Origin: Candidatus Methanomethylophilaceae archaeon
GTDB lineage: Archaea; Thermoplasmatota; Thermoplasmata; Methanomassiliicoccales; Methanomethylophilaceae
Direction: 5' to 3'
DNA length: 41,905 nt
Assembly: GCA_017524805.1 (NCBI GenBank)
Contig: JAFXUX010000005.1
Span: forward strand, 1 to 41,905
Shown here: positions 9,490-13,003 of the stretch, piece after piece
Layout of the letters: each line of letters opens with the position of its first letter
How positions within the stretch are numbered: position 1 is the stretch's first letter
Made by a program: the position numbers and the translations under genes
Notes under the pieces: model-generated
The model's input: the letters and a program-made list of their open reading frames with translations, nothing else
Told to the model about the DNA's origin: nothing
Databases searched by the model: none

Positions 9490-10026
9490 TTACTCCGGGA
9501 GATTGTTTTTGAGTTCGTCTATCTTCTTCAGAACCTCGACGAATTTCTGGTGCTCCGAGTCGGCGGCCGCTTTGCAGTCCAAGAATTGCTCGTGGCACAC
9601 CTGGGCCTGCTCGCGAAGCTTAGAGGCCTCGTCCATGAGCTGGCACATTTTCTCGTGGTTGGCCTGACCTTCCGCGGACATCTTGACCACGATCTGGTGG
9701 TTCTCCTGCGCTTTGGCCCTCGCATCTCCGGCATCGCCCAATCCTCCGCGGGCCTTGATCTCAGCAGCCATGTCATTGAATTCCTGGCGCTTCTGTTTGG
9801 CCTCTTTGGCCGCAAGATTGCATTCGTCCCTTTTCGAGCGGTAGACTGTGGCTTCGGAAGACAATTCTCTGGCTCTCTGCTGGAGCTTATTGCGTTTCTC
9901 GGCGAGCACGGAAGCCTGCTGGTGGTATCTGTCGCGGGATTCGCGGTATCTGTTCGCCTGCTTGCTGAGCTCAGCGGTCATCTCTTCCAGGCTGCGGAGG
10001 TCTTCCTCGATTATGTCCGATATCAA
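9490..10026 (-). CDS. Archaeal coiled-coil protein (COG1340-like)
   Basis: The frame is almost entirely charged helix with heptad character (KQANRYRESRDRYHQQASVL..., KRNKLQQRARELSSEATVYR), the signature of the archaeal coiled-coil family COG1340. No catalytic motif or membrane segment is visible. A structural or tethering role is inferred. The start is unsettled. TTG 10026 follows GTGATCGG and a TATA-like CTTTATCTC (10057-10065), ATG 9981 gives the usual family N-terminus, and ATG 10095 is the longest option. It ends TAA at 9490. Confidence 0.7.
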   Translation of the reverse strand: MISDIIEEDLRSLEEMTAELSKQANRYRESRDRYHQQASVLAEKRNKLQQRARELSSEATVYRSKRDECNLAAKEAKQKRQEFNDMAAEIKARGGLGDAGDARAKAQENHQIVVKMSAEGQANHEKMCQLMDEASKLREQAQVCHEQFLDCKAAADSEHQKFVEVLKKIDELKNNLPE

Positions 10027-10190
10027 CCGATCACTGCCGGATGCATGGCCAACTAAGAGATAAAGCGTGCGCCCCGGAAACCGTATGGCATCCATATGGA
10101 AGCGGAGGTTCCGGAACGGATCGAACCGCCGTCTTTCTATGAGCTTTGGATACCTCAAACGTAAATATGGAGCGGATATAACCGAGTCCG

Positions 10191-10427
10191 ATGAGCGATG
10201 AGAGCTATCGCAAATGCATGACATGCAGGCTCTGCAGGCACCTGGGGGAAAAATGGGAATGCATCCCGGAAGGCAGAGCCACTGAGCCGACCTCGTCCTG
10301 CGGAAGATACCGTCCCGGATGCTGCGAAGCTTGCGCCTCATTCGTCGAGGGAAAATGCATGCTGACCGGAAGGGAGACATACGATCTGGACGTGTGCCAG
10401 TTCTACGACCCGTCAGGCCTTGTCTGA
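10191..10427 (+). CDS. Cys-rich miniprotein (78 aa), unrecognised
   Basis: The protein has 78 residues and 10 cysteines, starting SYRKCMTCRLCRHLGEKWEC and continuing with SCGRYRPGCCEACASF and a late DVCQFYDP. The pairs suggest two metal (zinc or iron-sulfur) sites. A TATA box (ACGTAAATATGG, about 10159-10170) is centred about 25-28 bases before the ATG, so it is a leaderless gene. Its end overlaps the convergent DUF5685 gene by 15 bases. Function unknown; it could be a small redox or zinc protein. Confidence 0.68.
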   Translation: MSDESYRKCMTCRLCRHLGEKWECIPEGRATEPTSSCGRYRPGCCEACASFVEGKCMLTGRETYDLDVCQFYDPSGLV

Positions 10428-11324
10428 CGTGCGATCCTTCCTGTTGGCCAGAACGTTCTTGATGCTGGCTTTAGCTTTGGCCTCGCCAGTTATGACTTTC
10501 TTGGCGGACTCGGGTATGCCATAATAGACGATATTGTCGCACAGCGATTGGTTGCCCTGAAGCGAAGGCCTGATCTTGGAATAATGCTGCTGAAGACTTC
10601 CCACGGTCTCGCTTACGACGGAGGTCAATTGGTAAAGGTTGGAATCTATGAACGATCTGGCGTTGATGAATCCGGTTTCAGGGAGGAATGGGCTGTATGT
10701 CCCGTCCATGAAATCGTCATTAAGATCGTCTATGGCATCCATGATGTAGACCGAGGCCGTGAGCTCCTCGAAAATCCTGTCCAGATCATCGCTGGAGAAG
10801 TCGCCGGCTATGTCTTTGAGCGCACCGGTCAGCCCTCTGCCGAAGGTGAGGCCCATCTTTCTGGCATCTTTGCAGCCGGCCAGCTCGAGGTCGCGGAGGG
10901 CGGAGAAACCTTCGCCTACCATCCTGTCGTATTCGGGGTATTGCTTTGTGGCTTTTTCTATCGCTCTCCCGAGCGCGACGGAAATCGTCTTGGTCTTGAT
11001 GGACGGTTTATCGGTCTCGTCGTCGAAGAGCTCCCATTTGGTCAGTATGACGGTGTAAGCCGCCATCTTCCTCATGAGATCCGAATCCGCTTTGGGGGAG
11101 TCCAGGACGCATATGGTCTTGGTGGTGGGTCCGAAATCCAGGGAATCGCCCATCAGTCCGGAGAGAAGGATTGTGTTGAATGTCATGTCGAAATTCACGG
11201 TCGCGGTGCTTGTCAGCCCGAAGCCCGCTCTGAGTTGGTGGCACCCTTCGCAGTAGTATTTGCGGTATCTCTTAAGGTCAAACGGCTGGAGCCTTTGGTA
11301 AGAGGGGACCGTGTATCCGAACAT
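10413..11324 (-). CDS. DUF5685 family protein
   Basis: The protein has 303 residues and opens MFGYTVPSYQRLQPFDLKRY, then YYCEGCHQL. The MFGY start followed by Y-x-x-x-YC-x-x-C is the hallmark of DUF5685, known mainly from Actinobacteria and Firmicutes. The rest is largely helical, with acidic patches (YIMDAIDDLNDDF) reminiscent of all-helical enzymes that bind metal via Asp, but no assignment is possible. It is transcribed divergently from the Cys-rich peptide/radical SAM pair, whose start lies 203 bases away; a shared role is possible but unproven. The bacterial distribution of the family suggests transfer. Confidence 0.75.
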   Translation of the reverse strand: MFGYTVPSYQRLQPFDLKRYRKYYCEGCHQLRAGFGLTSTATVNFDMTFNTILLSGLMGDSLDFGPTTKTICVLDSPKADSDLMRKMAAYTVILTKWELFDDETDKPSIKTKTISVALGRAIEKATKQYPEYDRMVGEGFSALRDLELAGCKDARKMGLTFGRGLTGALKDIAGDFSSDDLDRIFEELTASVYIMDAIDDLNDDFMDGTYSPFLPETGFINARSFIDSNLYQLTSVVSETVGSLQQHYSKIRPSLQGNQSLCDNIVYYGIPESAKKVITGEAKAKASIKNVLANRKDRTSDKA

Positions 11325-11463: not shown

Positions 11464-11506
11464 CTTAAATATCGGAAAACAGTACAGCGTTCATTAACCG
11501 AATATA
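11464..11506 (+). promoter_or_regulatory. Promoter region of the Cys-rich peptide gene
   Basis: Two TATA-like elements precede the peptide: CTTAAATATCGG (11464-11475) and AATATAAG (11501-11508). The first would place the RNA start at about 11495, giving a leader of roughly 30 bases with GGTGA (11518-11522) as Shine-Dalgarno; the second would give an almost leaderless RNA. Confidence 0.4.
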
Positions 11507-11527
11507 AGATTCGGACTGGTGAATGAA

Positions 11528-11824
11528 ATGTCTAGCGATGCCGCTTCCGTAGACAAACTTGCAGCACTTTATGAGAGCCAATCCCCCTTGGCGTTCACTG
11601 CGCTCGCTTTGGAGGGCCTTCCTGAAAGCGATCACGCTGAGCGCTTCGACAAAGGGGAGCACGAGGGACTTTCCAAATGCGATTACAGCTGCTGCAACGA
11701 CAAAGGTTGCTGCAATTCTGCCGGATGGTATGCCTGTCTCGCTGGCGGCATCATTTGCTGCTGCGCCTGCTGCTGCTACATAACGCACGGGTTCAACGGC
11801 GTCTGGACTTATTGGCCCTTCTGA
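11528..11824 (+). CDS. Probable RiPP precursor: 12-cysteine peptide before a radical SAM maturase
   Basis: The protein has 98 residues from ATG 11528, with GGTGA at 11518-11522; GTG 11519 is an upstream alternative. Residues 1-50 contain no Cys and are helical and acidic (a leader-like part, e.g. SVDKLAALYESQSPLAFTAL). Residues 51-98 hold all 12 cysteines at 51, 55, 56, 61, 62, 70, 77-79 and 81-83, including the run CCCACCC, then a tail rich in aromatic residues (VWTYWPF). The sharp leader/core split and the radical SAM-SPASM gene 45 bases downstream make it a likely ribosomally made peptide whose cysteines become thioether-linked (ranthipeptide or sactipeptide style). I do not recognise the family. 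Alternatives: a metal-binding protein, or a small membrane-inserting peptide. No transporter or protease lies directly beside it. Confidence 0.72.
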   Translation: MSSDAASVDKLAALYESQSPLAFTALALEGLPESDHAERFDKGEHEGLSKCDYSCCNDKGCCNSAGWYACLAGGIICCCACCCYITHGFNGVWTYWPF

Positions 11825-11869
11825 TCGGGGAAGCTCGCCCGCGGTATCGCAAGCGGCAGGGGCTTCAGC

Positions 11870-13003
11870 ATGAAAGATTATCTTTCTGTGGTGATCAAGC
11901 CAACCCTTTTTTGCGATACCAGCTGCAGACACTGCTACCACACGCCCGAAGAGCGGGTAAAAGGCAGCATGTCCTTGGCAACCGTAGAGAGCATAATGAA
12001 GCGCGTCTCCGAGGAGTACGAGGCCGCGTGGTTCATATGGCATGGGGGAGAACCCCTGACATTGCCATTGTCCTTCTACAAGGAAGCAATAGCAATCGAG
12101 GAGAAGTGCTTCGGCAAAGGCTCCTTCCGCTGCGGGAATACGATACAGACCAACGGCCTGAATCTCAACAGGAGGCTGATGGCATACTGCAGGCAGAAGC
12201 AGATCAACATCGGCGTCTCGTATGAAGGCCCATACAACAGCGTCCTGAGAGAGGGCGACGTCTCCAAAGCCATCGCATCCCTTTCGGACAAGGACAACAA
12301 ATATTCGGCCAGCGCGACCATCTCGGCGGAGACGGCATCCCATCAGAAAGACATCTACCGCTATTTCCGCGACAGGAAAACCGACGTGTCCCTTTCCCCA
12401 GTCATCCCGGCCGGGTGCGCCAAATGCGGCGGTCTGGTGCCGGACCCGGACGAATTCATAAAGGGAAGCATAGAGGCCTTCGACGACTGGCTGTTCGATG
12501 CCGGCTCTGAGATACCTCTGATCCCGCATTATCTGTATGTCCTGAATTATCTCGGCGAGCCGGTCGCCTCGGATTGCGCGCATACGTCCTGCCTTACGAA
12601 ATGGATCTGCGTCAATCCGGATGGGTCCGTCTACCCCTGCGCCAAAGCCTGCCCTCCGGAATTCAGGATGGGGAACATCAACGAAGTCGCTTCCATCTCC
12701 GAGCTGTTCAGATCCGAGGGTTTCGTCAACATCCTCCGCGGTTCCATAGAGAGGCGCGAGAAATGCAGAGACTGCGAGATCTACCGCTATTGCGGCGGCG
12801 GATGCAGCATGGATTTCTATCACGAATGCGGGATCGAGAACAATACCGGAGACTCATGCAGGATTTACAAGGAAATCTTCTCGCATGTGGCTTCTGAAAT
12901 CCAGAAGATACTGGACGAGAAGCCGGATATGTCCGGATACAACCGTTTCGTCCGGGATGCCATCATAGGCAAGCTGGTCAATCCCAAATCAGTAATACAA
13001 TGA
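11870..13003 (+). CDS. Radical SAM/SPASM peptide maturase
   Basis: The protein has 377 residues from ATG 11870, with AGGGGC about 8 bases upstream. The AdoMet cluster motif is LFC15DTSC19RHC22YH, the standard CxxxCxxC. WHGGEPL at about residues 63-69 is the AdoMet-binding GGEP. The C-terminal SPASM domain carries many Cys (CLTKWICVNPDGSVYPCAKAC, then CRDCEIYRYCGGGC and a later DSCRIY), enough for two auxiliary [4Fe-4S] clusters. This layout is shared by sactisynthases, ranthipeptide synthases and anaerobic sulfatase maturases. The gene directly follows the 12-Cys peptide on the same strand, so the peptide is the obvious substrate; no sulfatase is present. There is no separate RiPP recognition (RRE) domain gene, and the N-terminus starts almost at the barrel, so leader recognition must differ or be built in. 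Confidence 0.9.
   Translation: MKDYLSVVIKPTLFCDTSCRHCYHTPEERVKGSMSLATVESIMKRVSEEYEAAWFIWHGGEPLTLPLSFYKEAIAIEEKCFGKGSFRCGNTIQTNGLNLNRRLMAYCRQKQINIGVSYEGPYNSVLREGDVSKAIASLSDKDNKYSASATISAETASHQKDIYRYFRDRKTDVSLSPVIPAGCAKCGGLVPDPDEFIKGSIEAFDDWLFDAGSEIPLIPHYLYVLNYLGEPVASDCAHTSCLTKWICVNPDGSVYPCAKACPPEFRMGNINEVASISELFRSEGFVNILRGSIERREKCRDCEIYRYCGGGCSMDFYHECGIENNTGDSCRIYKEIFSHVASEIQKILDEKPDMSGYNRFVRDAIIGKLVNPKSVIQ

Follow-up and report, generated by a model that had tools for sequence, protein, structure and literature searches.

A candidate RiPP-like cassette of Methanomethylophilaceae that groups a cysteine-rich peptide with a radical SAM/SPASM enzyme and a DUF5685 protein

The window examined here is a 41,905-nucleotide stretch of DNA from a Candidatus Methanomethylophilaceae archaeon, and it carries a short cysteine-rich peptide gene followed on the same strand by a radical SAM/SPASM enzyme gene, with a DUF5685 gene pointing away from both. 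A preliminary description had placed the locus at 11464–13003; its two genes and its end hold, while its start lies upstream of the peptide reading frame. We take the ATG at 11528 as the start of that frame, since GGTGA precedes it and the homologues have a matching arrangement. The features in and around the locus are:

10413–11324, minus strand: DUF5685 gene (303 aa), divergent from the peptide gene, its start about 200 nt upstream
11464–11471, plus strand: candidate TATA-box-like element, CTTAAATA, read from the sequence upstream of the peptide gene
11497–11513, plus strand: inverted repeat CCGAAT-N5-ATTCGG, immediately before the Shine-Dalgarno sequence
11518–11522, plus strand: Shine-Dalgarno sequence GGTGA, also in homologues
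11528–11824, plus strand: precursor-like peptide gene (98 aa), read from ATG 11528 to the stop at 11824
11528–11677, plus strand: Cys-free leader-like region (residues 1–50) with the motif LxxxYxxQSPxAF (Y15, Q18, S19, F23; alignments A2 and A4)
11678–11713, plus strand: first Cys box CxYxCCxxxGxC, with C51, C55, C56 and C62 invariant in all subfamilies
11720–11785, plus strand: hydrophobic membrane-type helix (residues 65–86) containing CCCACCC, from KD19 hydropathy and an AF2 helix
11768–11821, plus strand: C-terminal part, C81-C82-C83-Y84 ... W93-x-Y95-W96-P97-F98, the most constrained region
11838–11855, plus strand: short hairpin, stem CCGC/GCGG, in the peptide-enzyme gap (11825–11869)
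11870–13003, plus strand: radical SAM/SPASM enzyme gene (377 aa), beginning 45 nt after the peptide ORF

Dyads with other letters occupy the position of the 11497–11513 repeat in many homologues, and the repeat is possibly an operator or a 5′-UTR hairpin. A hairpin is frequent in the gap between the peptide and enzyme genes. Only the short version of this intergenic hairpin is present in the window; eleven relatives have a longer covarying one with the loop TGCATCGT, in whose stem five pairs are changed on both sides (covariation score 0.405 versus 0.191 in shuffles). This hairpin may keep expression of the enzyme below that of the peptide. The loop was also considered as a genome-wide repeat and rejected as such, having few copies. 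In one genus (L058, L110, L111) the open peptide frame reaches a long way upstream, across a Lys/Ala/Glu-rich stretch, and its start is uncertain there.

The peptide has no Cys in residues 1–50 and 12 in residues 51–98, CCCACCC included, just as first described. Among 20 diverse peptides aligned, C51, C55, C56, C62, C82, Y84, W96 and P97 are invariant and Y15, Q18, C81 and G88 nearly so, giving the family six near-invariant Cys and three conserved parts: CxYxCCxxxGxC, CC-x-Y and the aromatic tail WxYWPF. The peptides of relatives have 9–12 Cys each, and the position of CCCACCC reads VVVLVACCC, AVELLALVVVVLVCCA and similar V/L/I-rich strings; the Cys-rich C-terminal part thus stands for the window, but neither the count of 12 nor the CCCACCC run is conserved, and we rejected the run as a conserved Cys core. 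The hydrophobic stretch spans 19–22 residues (KD19 1.6–2.6 in eight subfamily members), and helix 65–86 is the best-modelled part of the AlphaFold (AF2) prediction, the rest being of low confidence. We read the peptide as having one predicted helix of membrane type, with Cys boxes on either side and the aromatic tail at its end. This tail is kept with variation across the family, position 93 being W or Y outside one divergent genome (G071), whose two copies end CVESCWPF and CAGSYWPF.

The peptide, encoded in single copy, is strongly conserved. Among 30 same-genus relatives it is retained in 27, and the genomes of the other three are 66–82% complete. Across the order its profile matches 77 of 147 genomes, all of them Methanomethylophilaceae and from nine genera; the genus of G071 is a tenth with the peptide. 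The named records are Methanomethylophilaceae presumably of rumen, gut, faeces and insect gut (Methanoplasma), with habitats taken partly from isolate names. Outside the family, 341 genomes sampled across the phylum gave only one weak match, with in-frame stops. The window peptide matched no Pfam or NCBIfam family, and 20 diverse peptides matched no NCBIfam model at E ≤ 10; membership in a known peptide family of either collection was rejected, none being found among the 20 diverse members. The median dN/dS was about 0.21 for the whole peptide, 0.39 for the hydrophobic stretch and 0.10 for residues 81–98, with the closest pairs at roughly 0.03–0.1; these values are approximate, since many pairs approach saturation at synonymous sites. 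They point to purifying selection on the peptide, and we infer that the peptide gives a conserved component of the cell and not a fast-evolving bacteriocin. The preliminary description had named a small ORF lacking conservation or purifying selection as grounds against its reading, and the ORF proved conserved and constrained. Since 27 of the 30 relatives keep the peptide, the radical SAM gene comes after it wherever the flanking sequence is long enough and dN/dS is about 0.21, the pairing is not due to chance.

Co-occurrence of the peptide and the SPASM enzyme in other Methanomassiliicoccales had been proposed as a check and bears the pairing out: over the 147 genomes of the order, profiles found the peptide in 77, the radical SAM enzyme in 79 and DUF5685 in 82, with the enzyme present in 77/77 peptide-positive genomes and DUF5685 in 76/77. 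Only two genomes have the enzyme without a peptide profile match, and one of these, G071, has peptides too divergent for the profile. The 82 DUF5685-positive genomes comprise 76 shared with the peptide matches, G006 and G071, which pair DUF5685 with the enzyme, three fragmented drafts with DUF5685 alone (the gene being cut by a contig end in two) and G057. The order DUF5685 (minus), peptide (plus), radical SAM (plus) is kept in nearly all genera, with the radical SAM gene 3′ of the peptide gene at every locus with enough flanking sequence; in L055 DUF5685 lies 4.9 kb away, and in G015 about 19 kb. Within a genus, shared gene order alone could hold neighbours together. The three-gene adjacency persists where other flanking genes differ and radical SAM identity drops to 27%, and in L106, L107, L109, L110, L124 and L125 the trio stays together while no other gene of the window is kept nearby. 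The coiled-coil gene at 9490–10380 and the RidA, CobO and MFS genes were considered as cassette members and rejected; their adjacency is not consistent across genera, so we treat them as mere neighbours. We found no protease or dedicated exporter belonging to the cassette, in keeping with the preliminary description, which had listed no such gene nearby but had missed the conserved, divergent DUF5685 gene upstream. Our best reading of these sequence comparisons is that peptide, radical SAM enzyme and DUF5685 form a conserved three-gene peptide-maturation cassette of Methanomethylophilaceae that is RiPP-like and apparently new.

Some genomes differ in other ways. G071 has two cassette copies (L124:6592-9053 and L125:8283-10741), each adjoining a gene for a P-type cation-transporting ATPase-like protein. 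The peptide and enzyme frames of Candidatus Methanomethylophilus sp. 1R26 (L094:5737-7500) appear frameshifted, by assembly error or decay. In G097 (L133:3504-6079) a paralogue of the radical SAM/SPASM gene (262 bits), the second in that genome, lies beside another radical SAM gene, with no obvious Cys-rich peptide nearby.

The enzyme carries C15-x3-C19-x2-C22, GGEP and a SPASM pattern, as first noted from the sequence, and scores above the Pfam cut-offs for both Radical_SAM (35.5 bits) and SPASM (34.4 bits). By comparison with the SPASM cluster ligands of anSME (PMC5682303), eight SPASM Cys are conserved (C236, C241, C257, C312 and C299, C302, C308, C330), and we predict three [4Fe-4S] sites in all, two of them SPASM clusters. 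No RRE domain was found in the enzyme, nor is there room for one, since its radical SAM Cys motif starts as early as residue 15, with only about nine residues before KPT; at the other end, a conserved segment YNxFVRDAxxGKLVNP extends beyond the part aligned by anSME. The enzyme reached the cut-off of no NCBIfam maturase model. Its best scores were to DynA (cyclophane; 155.9 bits, cut-off 450) and the sulfatase maturase TIGR03942 (137.3, cut-off 349.45); TIGR04083 gave 116.2 (cut-off 300) and GrrM 91.8 (cut-off 310), with the thioether maturases SCIFF (58.2, cut-off 425), PapB (46.3, cut-off 340) and StsB (35.3, cut-off 625) lower still. All 15 diverse enzymes examined match peptide-maturase models, with DynA, the sulfatase maturase and TIGR04083 the best. 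Among solved structures, anSME of Clostridium perfringens is the nearest (94.8 bits). The residue aligned to its Asp277, which we take to be the catalytic Asp, follows the third cluster-I Cys, and this position reads YPC[AGS]K in 38/38 sequences. A search of the genome, which is 98% complete, found no PF00884 sulfatase.

The DUF5685 protein of the window matches PF18937 at 139.4 bits (cut-off 26.7). Its AF2 model is all-alpha (pLDDT 85.4, pTM 0.84), and the 50 best Foldseek matches shown against the PDB were all of isoprenoid-synthase type or UbiA, including polyprenyl, farnesyl or squalene-type synthases, MoeN5 and terpene synthases; the probability reaches 1.00 for the best hits, and the E-values are modest (best 6.5e-3, with TM of about 0.5). 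Two Asp motifs, D101-x3-D105 and D196-x3-D200-x3-D204, do not vary among 11 sequences drawn from three phyla, with D101/D105 at the C-terminal end of helix 82–105 and D196/D200/D204 at that of helix 179–199. The two Asp motifs of the isoprenoid-synthase fold lie at such helix ends. We therefore predict, from the model, an isoprenoid-synthase fold with both Asp motifs, an assignment that rests on fold and motifs since profile–profile comparison, run against shallow alignments of polyprenyl synthases and squalene synthases, showed no relation. Sequence searches found no DUF5685 relatives among solved structures, and none were found in viral contigs. C25, C28 and C72 likewise do not vary from archaea to Nocardia, perhaps as a metal site.

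In the bacterial-type loci examined, a small sample limited by the genome collections covered, DUF5685 accompanies a Cys-rich C-terminal tail in seven of seven. In G057, from another family of the order, and in Pusillibacter and Subdoligranulum, the gene after DUF5685 encodes a J-domain protein whose C-terminus is rich in Cys (...MACIFCCHEGC, ...CGSNLCLPLCCLYSLCPGGYCFFC, ...GCSCCDMCTAMMCMDMCCGCGRGGC). In four actinomycete loci (L132:4001-5008, L134, L135 and L136) DUF5685 is itself Cys-tailed, with 7–15 Cys in its last 40 residues; none of 45 control proteins had at least three Cys in that stretch. In the J-domain loci (L123:8790-12099, L130:5001-6508 and L131:5001-6570) the protein after DUF5685 is of J-domain/TPR type with a short Cys-rich C-terminal tail, and at L123 a DnaK-type Hsp70 gene follows it. 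It is conceivable, though rather unlikely in our view, that DUF5685 represents a protein prenyltransferase of prokaryotes that has gone unrecognised, serving C-terminal Cys-rich tails in archaea as well as in Clostridia and Actinomycetota; in Methanomethylophilaceae it would act with the radical SAM enzyme to give a lipidated, cross-linked membrane peptide.

For the cassette as a whole, we lean towards a three-gene pathway whose product would be a cross-linked, possibly prenylated, membrane peptide. The radical enzyme would recognise the leader motif YxxQSPxAF and make one or more cross-links, either thioethers from conserved Cys or C–C cross-links in the WxYWPF tail. More tentatively, DUF5685 would add a prenyl group to the same peptide, or otherwise use a prenyl diphosphate on it, most likely at a conserved Cys (or else at Trp), so that the product would be lipidated and held at the membrane. 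An encoded precursor and an adjacent modifying enzyme are conserved together here, as is asked of a RiPP. We hold with high confidence that DUF5685 belongs to the peptide/radical SAM pathway, and the radical SAM enzyme very probably modifies the peptide, whereas prenyl transfer by DUF5685 is a plausible step to which we give somewhat less than even weight. As to the radical chemistry, thioether formation and aromatic cross-linking are equally tentative proposals, and some other radical chemistry is only slightly less likely.

Prenylation of a peptide by such a fold has precedent. ComQ and PalQ belong to the isoprenoid synthase superfamily and prenylate RiPP precursors, and with ComQ, PalQ and ChrPC peptide prenylation by this fold has so far always been on Trp (PMC10853753, PMC13290415); a Gln directly before the second Asp motif is typical of Trp prenyltransferases (PMC13290415). 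The conserved Trp of the peptide agrees with this precedent. The Gln is absent in DUF5685, where alignment A6 has M/L/V, and across phyla the shared companion of DUF5685 is Cys, so we favour Cys over Trp as the prenyl site, with low confidence. The cassette resembles ComX-ComQ and PalX-PalQ in having a small precursor with a conserved Trp near its C-terminus beside an enzyme of this predicted fold; unlike them it lacks the Trp-recognition Gln, has an extra radical SAM enzyme and is Cys-rich, the likeness seen so far lies in the predicted fold. The clostridial and actinomycete loci share the enzyme family and the Cys-rich tail, which there belongs to a chaperone-type protein or to DUF5685; no adjacent radical SAM enzyme was seen in them.

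The preliminary description had proposed a modified, thioether-bridged Cys-rich peptide. That a precursor-type peptide of a kind not described before is paired with a SPASM enzyme that modifies peptides is well supported, but we do not favour thioethers over aromatic cross-linking, given the low sacti/ranthipeptide scores, the missing RRE, DynA as the best model and the fact that V/L/I can replace most Cys of the hydrophobic stretch. In a thioether RiPP of the sacti- or ranthipeptide kind (AlbA, CteB, SCIFF, PapB), the enzyme would tie Cys thiols to backbone or side-chain carbons and DUF5685 would have a separate role. Those systems likewise set a short Cys-rich peptide beside a radical SAM/SPASM enzyme, and the six near-invariant Cys, the two-cluster SPASM architecture and the weak matches to SCIFF and PapB all fit. 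Their maturases usually have an RRE, however, which this enzyme lacks, and the SCIFF, PapB and StsB scores fall far under the family cut-offs; many Cys of the hydrophobic stretch are replaced in relatives, W96-P97 is conserved as well as the Cys, and the membrane-type helix, aromatic tail and DUF5685 partner set the cassette apart, leaving this reading unlikely by itself. We judge equally unlikely a cyclophane-type RiPP, comparable to dynobactin and the triceptides, in which aromatic side chains of WxYWPF would be joined and the Cys would serve metal or lipid. The best NCBIfam relatives of the enzyme are of this kind (DynA, GrrM, YhhB), with DynA first (156 bits) and other cyclophane-formers ranking high; W96 is invariant, position 93 is W or Y outside G071, and the aromatic C-terminus is the most constrained part of the peptide. 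Yet every cyclophane-maturase cut-off is missed (DynA 450, GrrM 310), the X3 position is unusual (Y/F/W/Q), the G071 copies end differently, and a Cys-rich membrane-type peptide in an archaeon with a DUF5685 partner is unlike those systems.

For the enzyme, an identity as anaerobic sulfatase maturase is very improbable, as is oxidation of peptide Cys to formylglycine. It shares domain layout, size and all eight SPASM Cys with anSME, its closest solved structure, but the TIGR03942 score (137 bits) is far from the cut-off of 349, Ala, Gly or Ser replaces the catalytic Asp, the genome has no sulfatase substrate and the gene is always beside a small Cys-rich peptide; we rejected this identity on the cut-off, the missing Asp and the lack of a sulfatase. 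TIGR04083 is also a methanogen enzyme described as peptide-modifying, with TIGR04165 as what we take to be its Cys-rich partner peptide family, but the enzyme reaches 116 bits against a cut-off of 300 and the cassette peptides match no NCBIfam family. An unmodified membrane miniprotein, metal-binding or structural, with the radical SAM and DUF5685 genes as mere neighbours that have other targets, would account for the membrane-type helix, the family-wide conservation and Cys boxes that could bind zinc or iron-sulfur; the three-way co-occurrence and adjacency across diverged genera make it improbable.

To our knowledge, few archaeal RiPP-like systems have been described, and our literature search found no paper linking gut and rumen methanogens of the Methanomethylophilaceae type to RiPPs and none on DUF5685 function. 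RiPP-type maturation is of a known kind, and DUF5685 is the categorically new possibility. Through its tie to the cassette, an uncharacterised family found in several phyla gains a function that can be tested; if DUF5685 does transfer a prenyl group, it would be a new enzyme type for peptide or protein lipidation. Kept by most of the family and under purifying selection, the peptide likely matters for cell physiology, as do SCIFF or the redox-cofactor peptides, and the cassette suggests a class of modified membrane peptide not described before in gut and rumen methanogens.
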